This document shows positions 1 through 10,877 of a stretch of 64,000 nt of DNA, piece by piece (within the stretch, counting starts at the first letter, position 1; each line of letters starts with the position of its first letter). Under the pieces are notes generated by a model, which worked only from the letters and a program-made list of their open reading frames with translations, did not search any database and had not been told where the DNA came from. This stretch comes from Roseibium aggregatum (GTDB lineage Bacteria > Pseudomonadota > Alphaproteobacteria > Rhizobiales > Stappiaceae). The stretch covers positions 1 through 64,000 of the forward strand of contig NZ_JABFCZ010000022.1 in NCBI RefSeq assembly GCF_014692675.1, read 5' to 3'. Position numbers and translations under genes: made by a program.

Positions 1-72
1 ATCGGCGGGAACAAGCTGGTCGAGTGTGACCATCTCAAGCGCTGTCTGATCCGGACCGGGTTTCTTCAACAT
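1..72 (-). CDS. IS1182-like transposase, N-terminal fragment at window edge
   Basis: Only the first 24 codons lie in the window, reading leftwards from an ATG at 70-72. The peptide begins MLKKPGPDQTALEMVTLDQL and continues VPAD, the usual start of IS1182/IS5-group DDE transposases (family knowledge, no search run). Such proteins cut and rejoin the element's ends. The catalytic core lies outside the window, so completeness cannot be judged. It sits beside two truncated genes, which fits a locus remodelled by mobile DNA. Confidence 0.65.
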   Translation of the reverse strand, partial: MLKKPGPDQTALEMVTLDQLVPAD

Positions 73-90
73 CAAAACAGTGAATCAAAA

Positions 91-149
91 ACCCCCGGCT
101 AACGCCAGGGGTTTGTCAGCAGTCTGAAGCCCCCACCAGGGGGCTTTTT
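91..149 (+). repeat. Two hairpins beside the transposase start, probable IS end and terminator
   Basis: Two hairpins lie back to back between the transposase start and the lacI remnant. The first (91-112) pairs ACCCC and GGC with GCC and GGGGT around a 4-nt loop, with one mismatch. The second (128-145) pairs AGCCCCC with GGGGGCT and runs into TTTTT, so it can act as a rho-independent terminator for rightward transcription. Hairpins of this kind near IS ends shield the transposase from, or to, outside transcription. The exact IS boundary and a target duplication cannot be assigned here. Confidence 0.45.
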
Positions 150-173
150 GCGTTTTTGGGATCTATTCCGGGA

Positions 174-653
174 TCAGAGATTGGTCGCCAGAAGAATCTC
201 CATCCTGATTTTTCCCGTGAAATCAATGTGCTGCGTTGATCGGTCATGGCTTTGAGCTTGCGGATGGCGCTTCGTGCCAGGTGACCGGGATCCTGCGTGA
301 TCAGCGCATCCAGCTGTCCGCTTTTCAACGAAGCCTCTGTGTAGGGCGTCCGCTCGTGGGCGATGGTCACGATAGGCTGCGGCAGCCGGATCTCGTTCAG
401 GACCGTGAGCGGGACCCGTGCCTCAGAGGAGAGGATATAGGCCGCGACGATGTCCGGGCGCTTGAGGGCTTCGGACATGATCGTCCGGGCGCGATCCGGA
501 TCGCCGTAGGTCTCCAGCGACGGCAGCGCGTGGAGATGAGGAAACCGGGAATTGATGATCCGGTCGAACCCGAGCCGGCGTTCCAGGCTGTCTCGCGACT
601 GCATGGTTTCCGAGACGATCAGGATGCTTCCCGTTTCCGCCCGGACGAAATCC
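174..653 (-). pseudogene. LacI-family regulator remnant, lacks DNA-binding half and has a C-terminal frameshift
   Basis: The leftward frame carries the C-terminal half of a LacI-type ligand-binding domain, for example ILIVSETMQSRDSLERRLGF, then AYILSSEARVPLTVLN and LDALITQDPGHLARSAIRK. The helix-turn-helix and the first part of the ligand domain are missing: similarity stops at about 650, where dhaL sequence begins on the other strand. Near the 3' end the frame changes. The main frame reads SREKSGW, while one base over reads KIRMEILLATNL followed by a stop at 174-176. That fits loss of one base in the A/T run at 209-213. With no start, no DNA-binding domain and a frameshift, it is a pseudogene. 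Confidence 0.75.
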
Positions 654-1139
654 GGCGACGGGGATACCGGGTCGACCCTGGCGAATGCGTCCCGTGCGCT
701 GATCGGATCGATGGACAGCCTGCCGCTGGCCGATTTCACGCAGCTGTTCCGGGCGATTGGGCAGGAACTGAGCCAGACCATGGGCGGGTCCTCCGGCGTG
801 CTCCTGGCGATCTTCTTTGCCGCGGCCGGCGATGCCTCCTCCTCCGGTCTGCAGATGCGGGACGCCCTGAAGGCGGGCCTGGAGCGGATGCAGCAGATCG
901 GCGGCGCCAAGCCGGGCGACCGGACCATGATCGATGCCCTGCAGCCGGCACTCGAGGCCCTCGGTGACGGGTTCGGTGCAGCGGCGGCTGCCGCCCGCAA
1001 GGGCGCCGACCACACCGCTACGCTTTCCAAGGCGAACGCGGGGCGGGCGTCTTACCTGAATGCGGAGCAGCTGATGGGGCATAACGATCCGGGCGCCGAA
1101 GCCGTCGCGCTCCTGTTCGAACACCTCGCCCGGCTCTAG
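648..1139 (+). pseudogene. Dihydroxyacetone kinase DhaL domain, 5'-truncated
   Basis: The frame matches the ADP/ATP-binding DhaL domain of dihydroxyacetone kinases: GDGDTGSTLA near the start (the metal-binding aspartates), then SQTMGGSSGVLLAIFFAAAG, GAKPGDRTMIDALQPALEAL and RKGADHTATLSKANAGRASY, ending in a natural stop. Roughly the first 30 residues of DhaL, and DhaK if this was a fused kinase, are absent. Upstream the frame runs as an open antisense reading of the lacI remnant back to 552, so a 195-residue chimeric ORF exists, but nothing suggests it is expressed. Activity is unlikely. Confidence 0.75.
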
Positions 1140-1165
1140 AAAAGCCCGAAAAGCCGCGCCTGCAC

Positions 1166-1193
1166 TGATCCGCAGGTCCCCCGGATCCGTAAA
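1166..1193 (+). promoter_or_regulatory. RpoE-type promoter upstream of the SDR gene
   Basis: TGATCC at 1166-1171, 16 bases, then CGTAAA at 1188-1193. The same spacing and core recur in front of rpoE (5477-5504) and on the other strand in front of the FAD/DUF1365/methyltransferase operon (5424-5451). TGATCC as the -35 element is characteristic of group IV sigma RpoE promoters in Rhodobacter-type alphaproteobacteria. A transcript would start near 1200, about 55 bases before the SDR start. Confidence 0.6.
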
Positions 1194-1255
1194 AAAGACG
1201 GATCTCGAAATGTCCCGCGCGGGCTCGCCGCCCCGCGGGGAAAAGGGGGACTTGA

Positions 1256-2020
1256 ATGGAGGATCGTCAAAAGCGGGCCTGGGTCGTCGGTGCAAGTTCG
1301 GGCATCGGCGCGGCGGTGGCGCTGAAACTCGCCGATGCCGGTTATCTTGTCGCGGCCAGCGCCCGGAACGAAAAGGCGCTGGATCTGCTCGCGACTGAGG
1401 CCGGTGGACCGGTTCAAGCGTTTCCGGTCGATATCCTTGACCGTGACGCGGTTGAACGGACGTTTGGCGAAATCGAAGAGACCATGGGGCCCGTTGATCT
1501 CGCCGTCTTTGCCGCGGGTATCTACCTCCGCGACGAACCGGGCCGGTTCGATGCGGAACTCGTCTCAAAGACGTTCGGCGTCAATCTGATGGGGACAAGC
1601 CATTGCCTTGAAGCCGTTCTGGCTAAGATGGTGCCGCGCCGCAGCGGGCACGTCGCCATCATCGCGTCGGTGTCCGGCTATGCGGGCCTTCCGGGCGGAG
1701 GCGTCTACGGGGCGAGCAAATCGGCGCTGATCACGCTTGCGGAAGCGATCTATCCGGAATTGAAGGAAAAGGGTATCGCCGTCAGCGTGATCAATCCGGG
1801 CTTCGTGCGCACGCCGCTGACCGCCCGGAACGACTTTCCCATGCCCTTCATGATTTCGGCGGAAGATGCGGCAGAGCGGATCGTGCGGGGACTGCAGTCC
1901 ATGCGGTTCGAGATCGCCTTCCCGAAACGCATGGTCTTCCTGCTCAAGCTTCTTCGGCTGTTGCCTTATCCGCTGTTCTTCGCCGTCACGAAAAAGATGC
2001 TGCGCGCGGACCGCGGTTAA
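1256..2020 (+). CDS. SDR family oxidoreductase
   Basis: A 254-residue classical short-chain dehydrogenase/reductase. It has the cofactor motif GASSGIG (residues 13-19), the AAG version of the NNAG strand motif, and an active site with Ser in ASVSGYAG followed by YGASK, giving the Ser-Tyr-Lys triad. A C-terminal hydrophobic stretch (FPKRMVFLLKLLRLLPYPLFF) suggests membrane association, as in SDRs acting on lipids. The ATG at 1256 follows AAAAGGGGGA. Its 3' end overlaps the convergent methyltransferase gene by 4 bp. The RpoE-type promoter upstream puts it with the singlet-oxygen genes; a role in lipid aldehyde or ketone reduction is inference. Confidence 0.85.
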   Translation: MEDRQKRAWVVGASSGIGAAVALKLADAGYLVAASARNEKALDLLATEAGGPVQAFPVDILDRDAVERTFGEIEETMGPVDLAVFAAGIYLRDEPGRFDAELVSKTFGVNLMGTSHCLEAVLAKMVPRRSGHVAIIASVSGYAGLPGGGVYGASKSALITLAEAIYPELKEKGIAVSVINPGFVRTPLTARNDFPMPFMISAEDAAERIVRGLQSMRFEIAFPKRMVFLLKLLRLLPYPLFFAVTKKMLRADRG

Positions 2021-3237
2021 GGCTGACGGGCAAGCGTGAACTGGACGACGTCCAACCGTCCGGAACGGAAACCGGCGGCGCAATAGTGAAGATAATAGCG
2101 CCACATCCGGTAGAAGCGGTCGTCGAAACCGAGGGTGCGGATTTTCGACCAGTTGTCGGTGAAGGACCGGTCCCAGGCAAGCAGCGTACGCCCGTAGTCG
2201 GCGCCGAAGCGCAGGCTGCCGGTTACCTCAAGCCCGCCTTTCGCGGCACTTTCCTCAAATGCTGTCACCGACGGCAGAAAGCCGCCGGGAAAGACATAGG
2301 TCTGGATGAAATCCGCACGGCGCCGATAGTCCCGGAACCGGCTTTCATCGATGGTGATGACCTGGATCGAGGCCTTGCCGCCGTCCGCCAGCAGATCGCG
2401 AACCCGGTCAAAATAAACGGGCCAGTTTTCTTCGCCGACGGCTTCGAACATCTCGATCGACACGATCTTGCTGAAACGTCCCTCCACATCCCGGTAATCC
2501 TGCAGGCGGATGTCGGCCTGTGCAGACAGTCCCGCCAGCGCCAGGCGCCGGCGGGCGTAATCCGCCTGTTCCTTCGACAGGGTCAGGCCGGTCACCCGGC
2601 AACCGGTTTTTTTAATGGCATGTTCGGCGAAGCCGCCCCAGCCGCAACCGATCTCCAGCACATGGTCGTCGGGGCCGATATCGAGGGCTGCGATGATGCG
2701 ATCGTATTTTGCAGCCTGTGCCTCTTCCAGCGACAGGTCCTCCCACTGGTAGAGCGCGGAGGAATAGGTCATCGTCCTGTCCAGCCACAGGCGATAGAAC
2801 CCGTTGCCAAGATCGTAGTGGAAGGCGATGTTACGCCTGCTGCCGGCCCGCGTGTTGCTGTTCAGCAAATGGCGCAGGCGCGCGGTCCACCGGCCGAACG
2901 CCGAGGCGCGCATCGGGCCCTGAAGCCGGTCTTCGTTGGCAAGTGCCAGTTCCAGGAACGCCAGCATGTCCGGGCTGTCGATGTCGCCGTCCATATGGGC
3001 GCGGGCGAAACCGAGGCTGCCGTTGCCGACGACCTTCCAGAAGGCGCCCGCATTATTGAGTTTCAGCATGGCCGACGGCCCGGGTTCAGACCCCTCGACG
3101 TGAAACTCCCGTCCGTCCGCGAACACGAGGGTCAGCCGTCCGCGGGAAATCCGCTGCGCCCAGCGGCAGATCATGCGTTGCCACAGGGGAGGCCTTTGCT
3201 CGGCGATCAGGGCCGCGGACTGTTCAATCTCACTCAT
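2017..3237 (-). CDS. CFA-synthase-family SAM methyltransferase, UfaM/CfaA-like
   Basis: 406 residues with the cyclopropane-fatty-acid-synthase fold: an N-terminal lipid-binding part, then SAM motif I in VLEIGCGWGGFAEHA (about 190-204) and the downstream VSIEMFEAVGEENW segment. The family transfers a methyl group from SAM to a double bond in a membrane phospholipid acyl chain. It is the third gene of an operon with a FAD oxidoreductase and a DUF1365 protein, one base after the DUF1365 stop. That trio next to rpoE-chrR resembles the Rhodobacter sphaeroides furan fatty acid genes, where this enzyme (UfaM, earlier CfaA) methylates vaccenate. Family assignment is firm; the furan role is inferred from the neighbours. 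Confidence 0.85.
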   Translation of the reverse strand: MSEIEQSAALIAEQRPPLWQRMICRWAQRISRGRLTLVFADGREFHVEGSEPGPSAMLKLNNAGAFWKVVGNGSLGFARAHMDGDIDSPDMLAFLELALANEDRLQGPMRASAFGRWTARLRHLLNSNTRAGSRRNIAFHYDLGNGFYRLWLDRTMTYSSALYQWEDLSLEEAQAAKYDRIIAALDIGPDDHVLEIGCGWGGFAEHAIKKTGCRVTGLTLSKEQADYARRRLALAGLSAQADIRLQDYRDVEGRFSKIVSIEMFEAVGEENWPVYFDRVRDLLADGGKASIQVITIDESRFRDYRRRADFIQTYVFPGGFLPSVTAFEESAAKGGLEVTGSLRFGADYGRTLLAWDRSFTDNWSKIRTLGFDDRFYRMWRYYLHYCAAGFRSGRLDVVQFTLARQP

Positions 3238-3238
3238 G

Positions 3239-4033
3239 TCAGTTTTCTCCGAGGCGGGGGTCGGCGACGATGGTGCTGTCGATGGGGTTTACTGCCGCCC
3301 GGTGACGGTGGACGGCGATCCCCTTGAGCCATAGCAGCAAGGCTTCGAAATGAATCGCGCCCATGATTTTCAGGGTCATGAGCGGATAGGCCGCGAGCGC
3401 CTTGAGGAGCGTACGGTCGCTCAAAGGTCGCCGGCGGCCTGCAAAGGATGCATGGAGGAGCGGGCCATCGGTGTCGGTTTCGTTGATCGCAATCAGGACT
3501 CGGTCCGACGGCGGCGCGATGCGGAACCGGTAGCGGCAGTCCATCGGAATGAAGGGGGAGACATACATCTCCTTGGCGCATTCGTGCCGGAACTGGCCGT
3601 CCTTTCCGGTGCCGGCGGGGATCACGTAGGTGTGTCGTTCCCTGAAGGTATTGCTGACTTCGTAGAGAACGGCGCGCAGCTCGCCCTCGGCCGTGCGGCA
3701 GAAATAGACGGTCAGCGGATTGAAGACGTAGCCGAAGACGCGCGGATAGCAGAGCACGGCAATACGCATTCCAGGGCTCCACAGCCCGGCGTTTTCCAGC
3801 TGCCCCTTCACCCAGTCCTTCAGGCCGTTCCGTTCTCCGGATCCGTGGTCGCGGTCATGAAAGCTGAAAACGGCCCGCCGGTTATGAGCAAACAGCCTCA
3901 GGTTCCCGTCGAGCAAGTCGAGCTCATCGAGATCGAGAAGCAGGGAAAAGACGCGGTAGCGCAGCTTGTGCGGCTTTGGACGGAGGCGGCTGTGGATCAC
4001 CTCTCCGGCAAAAAGGGCGGAGGAAAAGGTCAT
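3239..4033 (-). CDS. DUF1365 family protein, UfaO-like
   Basis: 264 residues of the DUF1365 family, recognisable by SALFAGEVIHSRLRPKPHKL at the N-terminus, LRYRVFSLLLDLDELD, and YPRVFGYVFNPLTVYFC in the middle. The start ATG overlaps the stop of the FAD gene (ATGA), so the two are translationally coupled. In R. sphaeroides the DUF1365 member of the RpoE regulon is, to my recollection, UfaO, proposed to put an O2-derived oxygen into methylated diene acyl chains to form the furan ring. Its biochemistry is otherwise unknown. Always found beside the FAD enzyme, it is best read as its partner. Confidence 0.8.
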   Translation of the reverse strand: MTFSSALFAGEVIHSRLRPKPHKLRYRVFSLLLDLDELDLLDGNLRLFAHNRRAVFSFHDRDHGSGERNGLKDWVKGQLENAGLWSPGMRIAVLCYPRVFGYVFNPLTVYFCRTAEGELRAVLYEVSNTFRERHTYVIPAGTGKDGQFRHECAKEMYVSPFIPMDCRYRFRIAPPSDRVLIAINETDTDGPLLHASFAGRRRPLSDRTLLKALAAYPLMTLKIMGAIHFEALLLWLKGIAVHRHRAAVNPIDSTIVADPRLGEN

Positions 4034-5388
4034 TCTGCGGCCATCCTCGGTTCCGGCACGACGATGCGGTCCGACGGGTTGTCAAGGAACCAGGGTCGCT
4101 TCATGCCGCCAAGCTCTTCCGCGACGGCGAGGCCGGACTGCAAGCCATCCTCATGAAAGCCGCTGCCGAAATAGGCGCCGCAGAACCATGTCCGCCGGCG
4201 TCCCTGCAATTGCCATAGGTTCGACTGTGCCGCCAGGGCATTCCCGTCGAACAGCGGGTGGGTGTAGTGGAAGGTCCGATGGATGTTTCGGGTGTCGCGT
4301 TCCTGGCCCGGATTCAGCGTCACGAACACGGGCATGTCGGTCTTCAGGTTCTGGAGCCGGTTCATCCAGTAGGTCACGCAAAGCTGCTCTTTGCCGTCGC
4401 CGCGCTTTCCGCCGATGTAGTTCCAGCTCGCCCATGCGGCCCTGCGCTTCGGCATCAGTCGGGGATCGGAATGCAGAACGGCGGTGTTCTCCGTGTAGCC
4501 GAAGCTGCCCAACAGGTTTTGTTCCTCAGGGTCCGGGTCGGCAAGCAGGCGGAGCGCCTGGTCCGCATGGGTGGCGATCACGACATGGGCAAACCGGTCC
4601 GATTGTCCGTTGGCGCAGGTGATCGTGACGCCGAGATCGTCGCGGCGGATTTCGACAACGGGCGAGCCGAAACGCAAGGCTCCGTTAAATGCGCCGAGGA
4701 GGCGTTTGACGTAAGTGCGGCTCCCGCCCGTGACGGTGCGCCATTTCGGCCGGTCCTTGATGAGCAGAAGTCCGTGATTGGAGAAGAACCTTACAAATGC
4801 CTTGAGTGGATAGGCGCGCATCTCGCTTGCGGTGGTCGACCAGATGGCCGCCCCCATCGGCAACAGATGATCCTCGATGAAGGTGCGGCTGTAGCCCTCC
4901 CGTTCCAGAAATGCGCCGAGCGAAAGGTTTGCGACATCGGGGCGTTCCAGCGCCTCCGGTGCTTCGCGGTAGAACCGGAGGATACCGGTGAGCATCGACC
5001 AGAACCGCGGGCTGATCACGTTGGTTCGCTGGCTCAGCAGGCCTGCGAGGCCGGAGCCTGAATATTCGAACCGGCCACCGTCCAGAGAGGCGGAGAAGGA
5101 CATGTCGGAAACTTCCGTCGGTACGCCGAGATGGGAAAACAGGGCAACGAGGTTGGGGTAGTTCCGGTCGTTGTAAACGATGAAGCCGGTGTCGACCGGG
5201 GTCTTGCCGGTAATGGTTTCGACATCGACCGTGTTGGAATGGCCGCCCGCGCGGGCCTCGGCCTCGAAGAGCGTGACGTCCCTGGTCTGCGAAAGAAGCC
5301 ACGCGGCCGAAAGACCGGAGATGCCGGAGCCGATGACGGCGATCCGCGCATTGCCTTCGTTAAAACCTGTATTGCCCTGAATGCTCAT
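4030..5388 (-). CDS. FAD-dependent oxidoreductase, UfaD-like lipid desaturase candidate
   Basis: 452 residues of the NAD(P)/FAD-dependent amine-oxidase/phytoene-desaturase superfamily. The N-terminal dinucleotide motif is IAVIGSGISGLSAAWLLS (17-34), followed by FEAEARAGGHSNTVDVE; the C-terminal FAD segment is TWFCGAYFGSGFHEDGLQSG. It is first in the three-gene operon and has its own RpoE-type promoter about 30 bases upstream. The R. sphaeroides equivalent is the acyl-chain desaturase UfaD in furan fatty acid synthesis. Family membership is well supported; the substrate is inferred from synteny. Confidence 0.85.
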   Translation of the reverse strand: MSIQGNTGFNEGNARIAVIGSGISGLSAAWLLSQTRDVTLFEAEARAGGHSNTVDVETITGKTPVDTGFIVYNDRNYPNLVALFSHLGVPTEVSDMSFSASLDGGRFEYSGSGLAGLLSQRTNVISPRFWSMLTGILRFYREAPEALERPDVANLSLGAFLEREGYSRTFIEDHLLPMGAAIWSTTASEMRAYPLKAFVRFFSNHGLLLIKDRPKWRTVTGGSRTYVKRLLGAFNGALRFGSPVVEIRRDDLGVTITCANGQSDRFAHVVIATHADQALRLLADPDPEEQNLLGSFGYTENTAVLHSDPRLMPKRRAAWASWNYIGGKRGDGKEQLCVTYWMNRLQNLKTDMPVFVTLNPGQERDTRNIHRTFHYTHPLFDGNALAAQSNLWQLQGRRRTWFCGAYFGSGFHEDGLQSGLAVAEELGGMKRPWFLDNPSDRIVVPEPRMAAE

Positions 5389-5423
5389 CGCAAACCGACC
5401 GATCCTGTTGTTGGTTTGATGGA

Positions 5424-5451
5424 ACTACGCGACAGGGCTGCCATCGGATCG
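5424..5451 (-). promoter_or_regulatory. RpoE-type promoter for the FAD/DUF1365/methyltransferase operon
   Basis: Read on the minus strand: CGATCC (5451-5446), 16 bases, CGTAGT (5429-5424). It differs from the rpoE promoter only at the first base of the -35 box and in the last three bases of the -10 box. The predicted transcript starts near 5417, about 29 bases before the ATG at 5388, a good distance for a leader carrying a ribosome site. Confidence 0.55.
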
Positions 5452-5476
5452 GTGCAACAGATTTTTTTATGCGCGA

Positions 5477-5504
5477 TGATCCGCCCTCCGGCACGGCGCG
5501 TATT
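5477..5504 (+). promoter_or_regulatory. Autoregulatory RpoE-type promoter for rpoE-chrR
   Basis: TGATCC at 5477-5482, 16 bases, CGTATT at 5499-5504. It lies 130-157 bases before the rpoE start and faces away from the matching promoter at 5424-5451. RpoE of the RpoE-ChrR type activates its own operon once ChrR releases it, so this position is expected. Confidence 0.65.
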
Positions 5505-5633
5505 AGCGGCATGACAATAACAGTTTCGCAGGCGGCCGAGCGATGCCACAATGGTTTTGCGCAAGCCACATGGTCCGCACGTCCGGTGCGGAAACCACGC
5601 GGCGTTGCGATCACCAAAGTGCGCGGAACCTCG

Positions 5634-6188
5634 ATGACTGAAGACCCTGAAGACATGTCACGGCTGATCGGAGCTGTGGCGCGGGTGCAGGATGTTGCCG
5701 CCTTCGAGACGCTGTTCCGCCATTTCGGTCCGCGCGTGAAGGCGTACATGATGCGCCACACCCGGAACCTTCAGACAGCCGAAGAACTGATGCAGGAAAC
5801 GATGATGCTGGTGTGGAACAAGGCCACACTGTTCGATCCCGAAAAAGGAAATGCCTCGACGTGGATCTTCACGATCGCGCGCAACACGTTCATTTCCGCG
5901 TATCGCAAGCAGAACCGGCCGGAATTCGATCCGAACGATCCGGCATTCGTCCCCGATGACGTCGAGCCCGCCGATGTCGAGTTCCAGAACAGACAGGAAG
6001 CGGAAATGGTTCGCACGGCCCTGCAGGACCTGCCCGCCGAGCAGCGCGAACTGGTGCAGCGTTCGTTCTTCGGCGACGTGTCGCACTCGGATCTCGCCGC
6101 GGAATACGGATTGCCGCTCGGAACGGTGAAGTCGCGCATCCGGATGGCGATCGACAAGCTTCGAAAAAGCCTGGGAGAGCGCCGATGA
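5634..6188 (+). CDS. rpoE: ECF sigma factor RpoE, ChrR-controlled type
   Basis: 184 residues from the ATG at 5634, chosen because the upstream frame crosses the promoter and the family begins with this MTEDPEDMSRLIGAVARVQD-like segment. Sigma region 2 is at about 20-85 (FRHFGPRVKAYMMRH, ELMQETMMLVW, ASTWIFTIARN). Region 4 is at about 120-180 (LQDLPAEQRELVQRSFFGDV, SHSDLAAEYGLPLGTVKSRI). It directs RNA polymerase to TGATCC promoters after singlet oxygen or organic peroxide stress. The gene overlaps chrR by ATGA, the usual sigma/anti-sigma arrangement. Confidence 0.92.
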   Translation: MTEDPEDMSRLIGAVARVQDVAAFETLFRHFGPRVKAYMMRHTRNLQTAEELMQETMMLVWNKATLFDPEKGNASTWIFTIARNTFISAYRKQNRPEFDPNDPAFVPDDVEPADVEFQNRQEAEMVRTALQDLPAEQRELVQRSFFGDVSHSDLAAEYGLPLGTVKSRIRMAIDKLRKSLGERR

Positions 6189-6865
6189 GCCCGCGCCACC
6201 ACATCCGGGATGAACTGCTCGCGGCCTATGCGACGGGAGACCTGGCGGAAGGCTGGAGCCTGGCCGTCGCCACCCATCTTGCGCTGTGCCCCGGGTGCCG
6301 GGGGCGGCTTGCCAAATTCGAGGCGGCGGCCGGAGACATGCTTGAGAAGATCGAGCCGTCGGAACAGTCCGTGGACGCTTCGTGGCAGGACATCCGGCAA
6401 CGGCTCTCCGGGCAGATATCCTCTGACCGGAAACCCTCTGGCTCCGTGCCGTCATTGAAGGCCGACAAGCCGCGGCACGACTATGTGTTGCCCGCACCGC
6501 TCAGGAATTATGTCGGTGCCGATGCGGATCAGTTGAAATGGAAATCGCTCGGACGGGGCGCGTACCAGGTTCTGGTGCCGACAGGGGACGAGGAGACCAG
6601 CGTGCGCCTGCTGCGCATCCCCGCCGGCAAGCCCGTGCCCGAGCACGGCCACGGCGGACGGGAACTCACCCTCGTTCTGTCGGGAAGTTTCAGCGACGTC
6701 ACCGGGCGGTTTTCCCGGGGCGACCTGGAAGATGCCGACGAAACCCTGGAGCATAAGCCGGTCGCCGGTGACGAGGAAGACTGCATCTGTCTTGCCGTTA
6801 CGGATGCGCCGCTTCGCTTCAAAAGCCGCCTGTTGAGGCTGGTCCAGCCGATGCTCGGCATCTGA
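6185..6865 (+). CDS. chrR: Zinc anti-sigma factor ChrR with cupin sensor domain
   Basis: 226 residues. The N-terminal anti-sigma domain has His6, His31, Cys35 and Cys38, the same positions reported as zinc ligands in R. sphaeroides ChrR. A linker is followed by a cupin-like domain (about 105-215) with His154, His156, Glu160 and His190 as likely metal ligands (EHGHGGRELTLVLSGSFSD). The protein binds RpoE and is destroyed when singlet oxygen appears. It is translationally coupled to rpoE by the ATGA overlap. All key residues are present, so it is probably functional. Confidence 0.92.
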   Translation: MSPRHHIRDELLAAYATGDLAEGWSLAVATHLALCPGCRGRLAKFEAAAGDMLEKIEPSEQSVDASWQDIRQRLSGQISSDRKPSGSVPSLKADKPRHDYVLPAPLRNYVGADADQLKWKSLGRGAYQVLVPTGDEETSVRLLRIPAGKPVPEHGHGGRELTLVLSGSFSDVTGRFSRGDLEDADETLEHKPVAGDEEDCICLAVTDAPLRFKSRLLRLVQPMLGI

Positions 6866-6875
6866 GGAGAGACCA

Positions 6876-7280
6876 ATGCGCGTGATTGTGCTCAGCTATG
6901 TGTCCGCGGCAGTGGTGTTTTTCGGTCTCGACTATCTGTGGCTCAGCCGGGTGGCGATCGGCTTTTACCGTTCCCATATCGGTCACCTTCTGCGAGACCG
7001 TCCCGACATGGGGGCGGCCGGGCTGTTCTATCTCGCCTATATCGCCGGTATCGTCTATTTCGCCGTCCTGCCCGGCCTGCAGAAAGAGAGTGTGGCCGTC
7101 GCGATCGTCAACGGCGCCGTACTCGGCCTGATCGCCTATGGCACCTACGACATGACCAACCTGGCAACGGTGAAGGGCTGGTCGTTGACCGTCAGCGTGG
7201 TCGACATGGTCTGGGGGGCCGTGCTGACCGCATCGGCGTCTGCTGCCGCCTTTGCCGTGGCCGGTTTGCTGAAAGCCTGA
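6876..7280 (+). CDS. DUF2177 family membrane protein
   Basis: 134 residues with about four hydrophobic helices, starting MRVIVLSYVSAAVVFFGLDY. The segment IAYGTYDMTNLATVKGWSL is a hallmark of DUF2177. The start follows GAGGAGAGACCA, 10 bases after the chrR stop, and the stop overlaps the photolyase start (TGATG), so it belongs to the RpoE operon. Its function is unknown. In other alphaproteobacteria it also sits near RpoE/ChrR or photolyase genes, hinting at a membrane role in photo-oxidative stress. Confidence 0.8.
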   Translation: MRVIVLSYVSAAVVFFGLDYLWLSRVAIGFYRSHIGHLLRDRPDMGAAGLFYLAYIAGIVYFAVLPGLQKESVAVAIVNGAVLGLIAYGTYDMTNLATVKGWSLTVSVVDMVWGAVLTASASAAAFAVAGLLKA

Positions 7281-8830
7281 TGACGGCAAAAATCAGGAAC
7301 CTTGTCCTCGTCCTCGGGGATCAGCTCACCCTGTCGATGTCCAGCCTGCAGGATGCCGACCCGGGTCGGGATCGGGTGCTGATGTGCGAAGTCGCCGAAG
7401 AGGCGACCTATGTCCGCCATCACAAGAAGAAGATCACCCTGATCTTTTCCGCCATGCGGCATTTCGCGGACGAGCTCCGGGACCGGGGATTCGGGGTTCG
7501 CTACGTGAAACTGGACGACGACGGCAACAGCAACTCGTTTACGGGCGAAGTGAAACGGGCCATCGATGAGCTGAAGCCCCAAGCGGTCGTGGTCACCGAG
7601 CCCGGCGAATGGCGGGTGAGGCAGGCGATGGACCGCTGGTCTGACGACTTCGACATTCCGGTCGAGATTCGCGACGATACCCGCTTCCTGTGTTCCCGCG
7701 ATGATTTCCGCAAATGGGCGGGCGACCGCCGCGCACTGACGATGGAGTTCTTTTACCGGGAGATGCGCCGGCGGACGGGCTTGCTGATGGACGGCGACAA
7801 GCCCTGCGGCGGGCGCTGGAATTTCGACGCCGAAAACCGCAAGCCCGCCGCCCCCGACCTTTTTCGTCCCGCGCATCCGACGTTTCCTCCGGATGCCATG
7901 ACCCGGTCCGTCATGGACCTCGTCGAAGCCCGGTTTCCGGATCACATGGGCTCGGCGGACGGATTTACCTTTGCGGTGAGGCGGGAGGATTGCGAGCGGG
8001 CGGCGGACGATTTCATCGCGAACTTCCTGCCGGGCTTCGGCGAGACGCAGGATGCGATGCTCAAGGACGACCCGTTCCTCAATCATTCGCTGTTGTCGTT
8101 CTACCTGAACCTCGGTCTTCTCGATGCGATGGCGCTTTGCAGGGCGGCGGAACGGGCCTACCTGGAGGGTCATGCGCCGCTCAACGCGGTGGAAGGATTC
8201 ATCCGTCAGATCATCGGCTGGCGGGAATACGTGCGCGGCGTCTACTGGCTGTTCATGCCCGACTACGTCGACAGCAATTTCTTCGAGGCCGAACGGCCGT
8301 TGCCGGCTTTCTTCTGGACGGGAAAGACGGATATGGCCTGTCTGGCGCAGGTGATCGGCGAGACGATCGAAAACGCCTATGCGCACCACATCCAGCGCCT
8401 GATGATAACGGGGAATTTCGCCCTTCTGGCCGGGCTCGATCCGCATGCGCTGCATGAATGGTATCTGGAAGTTTATGCCGATGCGTTCGAATGGGTGGAA
8501 CTGCCGAACGTCATCGGCATGAGCCAGTTCGCCGACGGCGGGCTGCTCGGCACCAAACCCTATGCCGCGAGCGGCGCCTATATCTCGCGCATGTCGGATT
8601 ACTGCAAAGGCTGCCGCTACGATGTCCGCGCCAAGACCGGAGAGGGAGCGTGTCCGTTCAATGCGCTCTACTGGGATTTTCTCGACCGGAACGCGGACAA
8701 GCTCTCGGCCAATCGGCGGCTGGCCCAGCCCTACGCCACTTGGCGGCGGATGGGGGAGGAGAAAAAGGAAACCTATCGGCAAAGCGCCCGGGCGTTTCTT
8801 GAAAGACTGGACGCCGGGCTTCCGGTTTAG
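7280..8830 (+). CDS. phrB: [4Fe-4S] cryptochrome/photolyase, PhrB-type (6-4) photolyase
   Basis: 516 residues from the ATG at 7280, which overlaps the DUF2177 stop. The N-terminal photolyase-related Rossmann domain starts NLVLVLGDQLTLSMSSLQDA. The C-terminal FAD domain has Cys354, Cys442, Cys445 and Cys458, each exactly four positions beyond the cluster cysteines of Agrobacterium PhrB (350, 438, 441, 454). That places it in the FeS-BCP group, which repairs (6-4) photoproducts using FAD, a lumazine antenna and an iron-sulfur cluster. As last gene of the rpoE operon it couples DNA repair to singlet-oxygen sensing. Confidence 0.88.
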   Translation: MTAKIRNLVLVLGDQLTLSMSSLQDADPGRDRVLMCEVAEEATYVRHHKKKITLIFSAMRHFADELRDRGFGVRYVKLDDDGNSNSFTGEVKRAIDELKPQAVVVTEPGEWRVRQAMDRWSDDFDIPVEIRDDTRFLCSRDDFRKWAGDRRALTMEFFYREMRRRTGLLMDGDKPCGGRWNFDAENRKPAAPDLFRPAHPTFPPDAMTRSVMDLVEARFPDHMGSADGFTFAVRREDCERAADDFIANFLPGFGETQDAMLKDDPFLNHSLLSFYLNLGLLDAMALCRAAERAYLEGHAPLNAVEGFIRQIIGWREYVRGVYWLFMPDYVDSNFFEAERPLPAFFWTGKTDMACLAQVIGETIENAYAHHIQRLMITGNFALLAGLDPHALHEWYLEVYADAFEWVELPNVIGMSQFADGGLLGTKPYAASGAYISRMSDYCKGCRYDVRAKTGEGACPFNALYWDFLDRNADKLSANRRLAQPYATWRRMGEEKKETYRQSARAFLERLDAGLPV

Positions 8831-8843
8831 GTTCTGGCCTCAC

Positions 8844-9422
8844 TCAAAACGTCGGCGGCGTGCAGGCGCTGACGACGACGCAGCGTTTGTTTCTGAGCGC
8901 CTTGAACCGGTGCGGGGTCGTGCTCTTGAACATGTAGGCGTCGCCCGGCCCCAGCACCTTGCGCTGGTCGCCGACCGTGATCTCGATATGGCCTTCCATA
9001 ACGATGCCGGCTTCCTCGCCCTCATGGCTGAGCATGACCCGGCCGGTATCGGCGCCCGGTTCATAGACCTCGTAGAGCATCTGCAGGTCGTGGCCGAAGA
9101 GGTTGTTGCCGACCTGTCTGTAAGAAATCTTTCCCTTGCCGATTTCCGTCAGCTCATCCGCCGCATAAAACACCTTGCCCTGGCGCTCGGGCTCGTAGGC
9201 GAAGAATTCCGACAGGCCGATCGGGATGCCGTCCAGCACCCGCTTCAGGGCGCTCAGCGACGTGTTGATCTTCGCCGCCTCGAGCTGGGAGATGAAACCG
9301 TTGGTGACGCCGGCCCGCTTGGCCAGTTCCCGCTGGGAATAGCCGTGCGCTTCGCGGATTGCGCGTAGCCGCAGGCCGACGTCTTTGGAGAAGTCATCGG
9401 TGTTTAGTGTGTTTACCATCAT
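8844..9422 (-). CDS. XRE-family regulator with cupin domain, PuuR-like
   Basis: About 192 residues from the ATG at 9422; a GTG at 9434 and an ATG at 9419 are alternatives. The N-terminal HTH is RLRAIREAHGYSQRELAKRA followed by GVTNGFISQLEAAKINTSLS. The C-terminal cupin (about 100-190) contains MLSHEGEEAGIVMEGHIEIT and GPGDAYMFKSTTPHRF. This build matches PuuR-type repressors of polyamine and amino-acid catabolism. It faces a class III aminotransferase, its likely target. An inverted repeat (9409-9428) covers its own start, suggesting autorepression. Confidence 0.85.
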   Translation of the reverse strand: MMVNTLNTDDFSKDVGLRLRAIREAHGYSQRELAKRAGVTNGFISQLEAAKINTSLSALKRVLDGIPIGLSEFFAYEPERQGKVFYAADELTEIGKGKISYRQVGNNLFGHDLQMLYEVYEPGADTGRVMLSHEGEEAGIVMEGHIEITVGDQRKVLGPGDAYMFKSTTPHRFKALRNKRCVVVSACTPPTF

Positions 9423-9428
9423 AAACAC
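9400..9428. promoter_or_regulatory. Operator candidate: GTGTTTA repeats at the XRE gene start
   Basis: GTGTTTA at 9409-9415 and its reverse complement TAAACAC at 9422-9428 form an inverted repeat with a 6-base gap. A further GTGTTTA copy lies at 9400-9406, nine bases away. The element covers the start codons of the XRE gene and lies about 110 bases before the aminotransferase gene, so one bound dimer could control both. Confidence 0.45.
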
Positions 9429-9536
9429 ATACACATGAAAACCGATGAAAACCAGTCACTTGCCGGATTGAAGAAACAGACTTTTCTCCCGACTGAAATC
9501 GATGCTTTCTAACCGTGGTTGCTAAGGAGAAGTGCC

Positions 9537-10877
9537 ATGGATGCCGTCGTCGATAGAAAAGAGCCCGGTTCCAACCAGGTCCTGGATGCCTACTGGATGC
9601 CGTTCACCGCGAACCGGCAGTTCAAGCAGAACCCGCGGATGCTGGTCTCCGCCAAAGGTATGCATTACCAGTCCGATGACGGCCGCACGATCCTCGACGG
9701 AACGGCCGGTCTGTGGTGCTGCAATGCCGGCCACGGCAACTCCGAGATCACCGATGCGGTCGCCCGGCAGCTTTCCAACCTGGACTACGCGCCGTCCTTC
9801 CAGATGGGCCATCCGATCGCGTTCGAATTCGCCGAGCGGCTGAAGCAGATCGCGCCTGACGGGTTCGATCATGTCTTCTTCACCGGCTCCGGATCGGAGT
9901 CGGTCGATACGGCGCTGAAGATCGCGCTGGCCTATCACCGCGCCCGCGGCGATGCGGGCCGGACCCGCCTGATCGGCCGGGAACGCGGCTATCACGGGGT
10001 CGGCTTCGGCGGCATTTCGGTCGGCGGCATCGTCAACAACCGGCGCCATTTCGGCACGCTTCTGACCGGCGTCGATCATCTGCAGCATACCCACGCTCCG
10101 GAGCACAACGCTAATTCCAAGGGCCAGCCGGAGTGGGGCGCGCATCTTGCCGACGATCTCGAGCGGATCGTCGCCCTGCACGGGGCGGAAACGATTGCAG
10201 CGGTGATCGTCGAGCCGGTCGCCGGATCGACCGGCGTGCTGGTGCCGCCCAAGGGCTACCTGGAACGTCTGCGCGCCATCTGCGACCGGCACGGCATCCT
10301 GTTGATCTTCGACGAGGTGATCACCGGTTTCGGCCGCCTGGGCACGCCCTTTGCCGTCGATTATTTCGGCGTCAAGCCGGACCTGTTCACGACGGCGAAG
10401 GCGCTGACCAACGGCGTGGTCCCCATGGGGGCGGTGTTCGCGCAGAATCATGTGCACGAAGCCTTCATGAACGGGCCGGAAGCGAGCATCGAGCTCTTCC
10501 ACGGCTACACCTATTCCGGCCATCCGGTCGCCTGCGCGGCGGGACTCGCCACGCTGGACATCTACGAAAAGCACGGACTTCTGACCCGCGGCGCCGACAT
10601 TGCCGGCCACTGGGAAGACACCGTCCACTCGCTGAAAGATGCGCGCCACGTCAAGGACGTGCGCAACCTCGGCATCATCGCGGGCATCGAACTAGCGTCC
10701 CGCGACGGGGCCGTCGGCCAGCGCGCCTACGAGGTGTTCGTCAAGTGCTTCGAGGCCGGTGTCCTGATCCGGGTGACGGGCGACATCATCGCGCTGTCGC
10801 CGCCGCTGATCGTCGAGGACGCCCAGGTTTCGGAAATGGTCGACACCCTGCGCGACATCCTTGCCGCGACCGAGTAA
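9537..10877 (+). CDS. Class III aminotransferase, omega-amino acid-pyruvate type
   Basis: 446 residues from the ATG at 9537, preceded by AAGGAGA. Class III PLP-enzyme marks are the glycine-rich GSGSESVDTALKIALAYHRA, the PLP-ring aspartate in LLIFDEVITGFGRLG and the PLP-lysine in TTAKALTNGVVPMGAVF. The N-terminal DAYWMPFTANRQFK is typical of beta-alanine/omega-amino acid:pyruvate transaminases. The likely reaction moves an amino group from beta-alanine, taurine or a polyamine-derived amine to pyruvate. The PuuR-like regulator opposite supports polyamine or omega-amino acid catabolism; the exact substrate is unknown. Confidence 0.85.
   Translation: MDAVVDRKEPGSNQVLDAYWMPFTANRQFKQNPRMLVSAKGMHYQSDDGRTILDGTAGLWCCNAGHGNSEITDAVARQLSNLDYAPSFQMGHPIAFEFAERLKQIAPDGFDHVFFTGSGSESVDTALKIALAYHRARGDAGRTRLIGRERGYHGVGFGGISVGGIVNNRRHFGTLLTGVDHLQHTHAPEHNANSKGQPEWGAHLADDLERIVALHGAETIAAVIVEPVAGSTGVLVPPKGYLERLRAICDRHGILLIFDEVITGFGRLGTPFAVDYFGVKPDLFTTAKALTNGVVPMGAVFAQNHVHEAFMNGPEASIELFHGYTYSGHPVACAAGLATLDIYEKHGLLTRGADIAGHWEDTVHSLKDARHVKDVRNLGIIAGIELASRDGAVGQRAYEVFVKCFEAGVLIRVTGDIIALSPPLIVEDAQVSEMVDTLRDILAATE

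Follow-up and report, generated by a model that had tools for sequence, protein, structure and literature searches.

The stretch analyzed, called the window below, comprises 64,000 nucleotides of Roseibium aggregatum contig NZ_JABFCZ010000022.1, starts at the contig's first base (G000:C45) and belongs to a genome of 5.66 Mb. It carries an ECF11 gene cluster encoding the sigma factor RpoE and its anti-sigma factor ChrR, a short-chain dehydrogenase/reductase (SDR), UfaD-, UfaO- and UfaM-like proteins, a DUF2177 membrane protein and a photolyase-related protein (Table 1). Three RpoE-type promoter motifs precede the SDR gene, the ufa-like operon and rpoE-chrR. The regulon itself is already known; what looks new here is the fusion of a start codon to the rpoE promoter, from which rpoE would be read as a leaderless mRNA.

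All three motifs of the original prediction were recovered with a spacing of N16, at 1166 (+), 5451 (-) and 5477 (+), and the gene layout agrees with their assignment to the SDR gene, the FAD/DUF1365/methyltransferase operon and rpoE-chrR. The two central promoters diverge within one gap, as had been claimed, with their -35 elements back to back and 25 bp apart. Two features of ECF11 systems were found, namely, an autoregulatory TGATCC-N16-CGTA at 5477-5502 ahead of rpoE and, from the core regulon, an SDR of the RSP_1087 type behind the motif at 1166. In the sister genome G018, all three motifs are kept, each with N16, and the SDR promoter reads TGATCCGCAGGCCCTCCGGATCCGTA.

Within the window, TGATCC-N16-CGTA was observed twice, compared to 0.05 expected from 100 shuffles. 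The genome scan that had been proposed as a check returned 11 matches at N16; spacings from 6 to 26 gave 139 in total, i.e., 128 over the 20 other spacings with a mean of 6.4. Since about 6.4 matches occur per other spacing, the count carries no evidential weight and was rejected as evidence, and most of the 11 matches are probably due to chance. The case for three real promoters rests on position and conservation, not on the count. When the 11 sites were read against open reading frames, one site beyond the two of the window (L009) was in a plausible promoter position, and the remaining sites fell inside reading frames or right at their beginning, with L011 left undecided. The L009 site (G000:C52:68880-68905) reads TGATCC-N16-CGTATT, lies 66 nt ahead of an ATG whose gene was assigned by eye to a WYL/YafY-type regulator, and is a candidate further target.

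The rpoE transcript had been expected to start at about 5511, a position that coincides with the A of an ATG not remarked on in the original prediction. From this ATG, the reading frame of rpoE stays open through 41 codons up to 5634, and no Shine-Dalgarno-like stretch was found before 5634 by the pattern used. A set of 45 distinct rpoE promoters was assembled from the rpoE genes of the larger loci, with the motif within 300 bp and identical motif strings dropped. An ATG was present at offset 8 (13 promoters) or 9 (22 promoters) past CGTA in 35 of the 45, none was present at offsets 3 to 7, and two were present at offset 10. Each of the 35 ATGs begins an open, in-frame extension, the lengths ranging from 11 to 63 codons. 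Before other genes, an ATG at the same offset was found in 1 of 53 ufaD promoters (not in frame), 1 of 32 chrR-first promoters (in frame), 1 of 8 SDR promoters (not in frame), and 0 of 5 DUF2177 promoters. In the chrR-first set, from which loci with an rpoE match were excluded, in-frame ATGs clustered at offsets 32 to 36 (17/32), a normal leader length. The Fisher test of rpoE against ufaD for the ATG offset gave 2e-16, ignoring relatedness; after clustering of RpoE at 80, 65, and 55% identity, the ATG was seen in 28/38, 22/30, and 14/21 promoters, respectively. Because of the contrast between rpoE (35/45) and the ufaD and chrR-first promoters (1/53 and 1/32), the rpoE mRNA is probably leaderless and RpoE N-terminally extended, by 41 residues in the window, and the protein is probably longer than annotated.

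The pattern was also followed in 385 genomes of the class, 96 of which contain CGTA-N8,9-ATG and 51 CGTA-N5,6-ATG. With 30 loci taken per spacing class, RpoE followed seven at N8,9, all seven in frame, and one at N5,6, which was not in frame; among the seven, L276 repeats the promoter of L262 from the first set. Five of 89 plasmid records were inspected, and four of the five annotated copies have the ATG, in frame. All four are annotated with another start, located 19, 46, or 33 codons downstream of the ATG or 12 codons upstream at the promoter -35 element. The fifth record has no motif of the same pattern ahead of rpoE. Separately, two photolyase-like genes (L302 and L303, named by eye) have an ATG 8 nt past the motif CGTA, and leaderless starts may extend beyond rpoE.

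Taken as a whole, an ECF11 regulon of three units with the rpoE promoter fused to a start codon is regarded as a highly probable explanation of the locus. By analogy with work on Rhodobacter sphaeroides, singlet oxygen would lead to the loss of ChrR and the release of free RpoE, which would induce transcription of three local units, rpoE-chrR-DUF2177-photolyase, the furan fatty acid genes ufaD-ufaO-ufaM, and the SDR gene. The RpoE-driven rpoE transcript would begin at, or within 1 to 2 nt of, the in-frame ATG at 5511, which ribosomes would use on the leaderless mRNA to make RpoE with a 41-residue N-terminal extension.

Several observations weigh against such a start. Ten of the 45 rpoE promoters have no ATG at offset 8 or 9, and 10 further RpoE loci have no motif of the used pattern within 300 bp. 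An inner ATG or GTG with a Shine-Dalgarno-like stretch is present in 7 of the 35 loci with the leaderless ATG, compared to 6 of the 10 rpoE loci without it, a contrast that is suggestive only. Between the window and G018, the three codon positions of the extension differ at 5, 5, and 8 sites; the RpoE body, with 5, 11, and 50 changes, is biased to the third position. The near-even changes in the extension indicate that constraint at the protein level is either weak or combined with constraint at the DNA level. The same mixed pattern would fit a transcript that starts at 5511 with the ATG unused, RpoE being translated from 5634 after a leader of 123 nt and the ATG being a by-product of the start sequence preferred by the sigma factor. 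This alternative also agrees with the 184-aa length of the R. sphaeroides RpoE construct in the PDB and with the precedent of Bradyrhizobium ecfF, for which the authors favored a later start codon from the overlap of the start site with the annotated ATG (PMC3420878). It is nevertheless unlikely, as promoters of the same type ahead of ufaD and chrR lack the ATG, a preferred initiation sequence leaves the frame and openness of all 35 unexplained, and an inner ATG with a Shine-Dalgarno-like stretch is available in only 3 of the 35.

The extension is poorly conserved between families. A cysteine at position 12 (Cys12) was found in 11 of 14 aligned extended proteins, or 11 of 34 when all extensions long enough are counted, and in 10 of the 11 proteins from the window, G018, and nine related named loci. 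Its codon is TGC in 11/11 cases, within TGCCA in 9/11. Conserved Cys12 was not accepted as proof of selection on the protein, 10 of the 11 coming from one related genome group and the codon always being TGC; on these data, protein and nucleotide constraint on the extension cannot be told apart. The constant codon and the near-equal change at the three codon positions could also mean that a DNA or RNA element within the transcript's first 60 nt, e.g., near TGCCA at +34, and not the protein is the reason for retaining the extension. This reading is less likely still than an unused ATG, since frame and openness are kept in 35/35 loci despite lengths of 11 to 63 codons.

If the extended RpoE is made, its most likely use is one of the kind described for Streptomyces SigR', although this proposal is itself tentative. 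Across ECF11, the extended form (RpoE') may normally come from the leaderless mRNA and be confined, wholly or mainly, to conditions under which the autoregulated promoter is active, with the extension, including Cys12 in one clade, tuning stability or response. It is possible, but doubtful, that RpoE' is in this way an independent alphaproteobacterial counterpart of SigR'.

Table 1. Features of the RpoE-ChrR cluster in the window
Feature	Coordinates	Strand	Basis or remarks
SDR promoter, RpoE (ECF11)-type	1166..1193	+	TGATCC 1166-1171, N16, CGTAAA 1188-1193; predicted start ~1200
SDR (short-chain dehydrogenase/reductase)	1256..2020	+	Pfam adh_short E 1.3e-41; probable RSP_1087 counterpart by synteny
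UfaM-like CMAS-family methyltransferase	2017..3237	-	Pfam CMAS E 2.5e-86
UfaO-like DUF1365 protein	3239..4033	-	Pfam DUF1365 E 1.8e-80
UfaD-like FAD-dependent oxidoreductase	4030..5388	-	Pfam Amino_oxidase E 5.3e-26
ufaD-ufaO-ufaM-like operon promoter, RpoE-type	5424..5451	-	CGATCC 5451-5446, N16, CGTAGT 5429-5424; predicted start ~5417
rpoE promoter, RpoE-type, autoregulatory	5477..5504	+	TGATCC 5477-5482, N16, CGTATT 5499-5504; predicted start ~5511
Proposed leaderless ATG (5511-5513, 8 nt past CGTA) and 41-codon RpoE N-terminal extension with Cys12	5511..5633	+	Promoter comparison
RpoE (ECF11 sigma) core, homology-based start 5634	5634..6188	+	2q1z_A E 2.4e-45; Pfam
ChrR anti-sigma factor	6185..6865	+	2z2s_B E 1.9e-54
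DUF2177 membrane protein, 10 nt past chrR, same direction	6876..7280	+	Family search, locus comparison
Photolyase-related protein (DPRP), start overlapping the DUF2177 stop	7280..8830	+	Pfam DPRP E 1.4e-87

The best match of the sigma factor was R. sphaeroides RpoE (2q1z_A), and the next best reached E 3.6e-18. The zinc ligands reported for ChrR, H6, H31, C35, and C38 in the zinc anti-sigma domain and H141, H143, E147, and H177 in the cupin-like domain (PMC6852236), are kept in both domains, as seen by eye in the alignment with 2z2s_B. The photolyase-related gene was not found at the corresponding place in G018. DUF2177 genes stand beside ECF11 clusters or directly behind a motif of their own in the window (6876-7280) and at L050, L103, L112, L144, and L173. 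No sigma-70-type promoter was found in positions 1 to 9600 of the window, where 1.6 are expected by chance. At 170-1139, upstream of the cluster, a short LacI-type-like remnant (-) abuts a dihydroxyacetone-kinase-like end (+), which by eye looks like an old junction.

In the window, the convergent SDR and ufaM-like genes overlap by 4 nt at their stop codons (2017-2020), and no terminator was listed between them; the two units, if induced together, would be transcribed into one another. An inverted repeat, GATCCGT-N7-ACGGATC, at 1184-1204 overlaps the -10 element and start of the SDR promoter, is also present in G018 (by eye), and may be an operator. The 5' leader of the SDR gene was considered as a structured element and rejected, with a folding z-score of 1.01 against shuffles.

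Conservation of the SDR promoter was assessed from the best SDR match in each of 61 genomes, searching 300 bp ahead of the SDR or, where chrR or rpoE leads its operon, ahead of that gene. Thirteen genomes with a best SDR match of E > 1e-30 were dropped (G037, G040, G042, G044, G045, G047, G050, G051, G052, G054, G055, G056, and G058). TGATC[CT]-N16-CGTA was present ahead of the SDR unit in 42 of the remaining 48, compared to 0/48 at the 16 other spacings examined (8 to 15 and 17 to 24) and 0/48 in the opposite orientation. The motif stands before chrR-SDR in 37 genomes, directly before the SDR in three (the window, G018, and G060), and before rpoE-chrR-SDR in two. In G060, whose SDR has 51% identity, TGATCC-N16-CGTA lies 83 bp upstream of the start with a different spacer sequence. 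The six misses were G006, G057, G038, G048, G039, and G041. Of these, G006 is explained by a motif before rpoE and G057 by a motif 350 bp before chrR, and G038 and G048 gave no match to ChrR at E 1e-10 or to RpoE at E 1e-15.

Two further surveys were made. Among the 80 loci scanned, with rows given for those that had an SDR or a name of interest, the SDR motif of named Rhizobiales sharing the cluster of the window was degenerate in three cases (TGAACC in L124 and L125, TAAACC in L123), L127 had only a poor N15 match upstream of the SDR, and L122, L126, and L131 had no good motif. In a wider sample of the class, 40 of 69 matched genomes were examined, and TGATC[CT]-N16-CGTA was found within 3000 bp upstream of the SDR in 18/40, with 1/40 each at N15 and N17 and 0/40 at N12-14 and N18-20. 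Where the motif is present in this sample, the SDR stands behind another gene. TGATCT-N16-CGTA was further noted about 1.1 to 1.2 kb beyond the SDR, between ufaM and SDR and pointing towards the SDR, at L135, L137, L141, L142, and L143, and also at L249, L262, L268, and L271.

Membership of the SDR in the regulon has to be weighed against several of these results. The 48 genomes are not independent, because 36 of the 47 relatives belong to the genus of the window. ChrR is present in four of the six genomes scored as misses, the misses of G039 and G041 are unexplained, and in the wider sample no SDR among the 40 genomes has the motif within the nearest 250 bp. The upstream motifs nonetheless place the SDR in the regulon in many lineages, as judged from sequence, through varied layouts and with local loss. 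A chance origin of the motif at 1166, with the SDR outside RpoE control, is very improbable: about six TGATCC-CGTA matches per spacing are expected in the genome and four named loci lack a good motif, but 42/48 at N16 against 0/48 at other spacings, and retention in G018 and, with another spacer, in G060, speak for a real promoter.

The SDR of the window is therefore very probably a member of the RpoE regulon. The original prediction took it for a further member of the singlet-oxygen response; membership is backed by the 42/48 conservation, but it is not new, as the published core regulon with the consensus TGATCC-N16-CGTA already includes the SDR RSP_1087 (Pseudomonas syringae study, PMC5507510). 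That core comprises rpoE-chrR, RSP_1087, 1088, 1090, and 1091, phrB (RSP_2143), and cfaS (RSP_2144) (PMC5507510). In R. sphaeroides, rpoE-chrR is preceded by the RSP_1091-1087 operon, each with an RpoE-dependent promoter (PMC3818230), and deletion of RSP1087 left furan fatty acids unchanged (PMC7380195). The SDR of the window is the probable counterpart of RSP_1087, an assignment based on synteny and not on direct alignment. The arrangement with a separate SDR promoter and a convergent SDR/ufaM pair is a variant in layout that G018 shares. The gene order recurs on a Rhizobium daejeonense plasmid, where motif and SDR are separated by a small gene.

The three promoters had also been read as a local regulon, and conservation supports this well, except that the regulon is probably not only local. 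At three rpoH-like loci, three matches with at least 9 of 10 motif letters were found (spacings 15 to 17, both strands), one of them in promoter position. The latter is the TGATCT-N16-CGTAAA upstream of the second rpoH-like gene (G000:C22:2947-3750, L232), with CGTA about 35 nt ahead of the likely ATG. This motif fits the cascade from RpoE to RpoHII described for R. sphaeroides (PMC6852236), and on moderate evidence the gene is a likely RpoHII link.

In 33 of the 36 genomes of the same genus (all but G006, G018, and G028), chrR heads the SDR operon behind the ECF11 motif, at loci such as L049, L054, L061, L120, and L121, and the genome has its strongest rpoE match at another place, so that sigma and anti-sigma factor are unlinked. 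In the window and G018 they are linked, in a Rhizobiaceae-like cluster. Similar clusters are carried on Rhizobium, Aminobacter, and Ensifer plasmids, which suggests that the lineage of the window received the cluster by transfer.

Should the leaderless, extended RpoE prove true, what has been studied as RpoE may, in many species, be missing the native N terminus. The switch-off of the singlet-oxygen response would then gain a simple and testable handle, a stress-made sigma isoform with the start codon as the first base of its autoregulated transcript. Leaderless mRNAs need no Shine-Dalgarno pairing, and such translation could matter when oxidation damages ribosomes.

Among the open-access literature matches listed, no report of a leaderless rpoE start was found. 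The closest system is RpoE-ChrR of R. sphaeroides, with sigma factor and ChrR matching 2q1z and 2z2s, the same motif, and an SDR in the core set. In contrast to it, the window has a separate promoter for the SDR, which converges with the ufa operon, and the cluster includes the ufaM-like and photolyase-related genes; the available text on the R. sphaeroides system does not mention a leaderless rpoE start. Leaderless mRNA of an extracytoplasmic function (ECF) sigma gene is as such already known from Mycobacterium tuberculosis sigE (PMC4921905), where it comes from sigEp1 with a WhiB7-binding motif and not from the upstream, sigma-type promoter. In Bradyrhizobium ecfF, the mapped start lies 6 bp past the -10 box and likewise overlaps the annotated ATG (PMC3420878), but the gene belongs to another sigma group (group 16) with another motif. 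For Streptomyces SigR', an upstream in-frame ATG on the transcript of an autoregulated promoter leads to an extended, unstable sigma factor with 55 or 58 additional residues (PMC4921905, PMC5472188). SigR' belongs to a separate sigma system, a second, downstream promoter in Streptomyces makes the stable short form, and the instability is reported for the Streptomyces form only; the rpoE ATG of the window differs in lying at the expected transcript start. Both are redox-type ECF sigma factors paired with a zinc anti-sigma factor (RsrA for SigR'), and in both, for the window as predicted from sequence, an upstream in-frame ATG on the autoregulated transcript gives the sigma factor an N-terminal extension.

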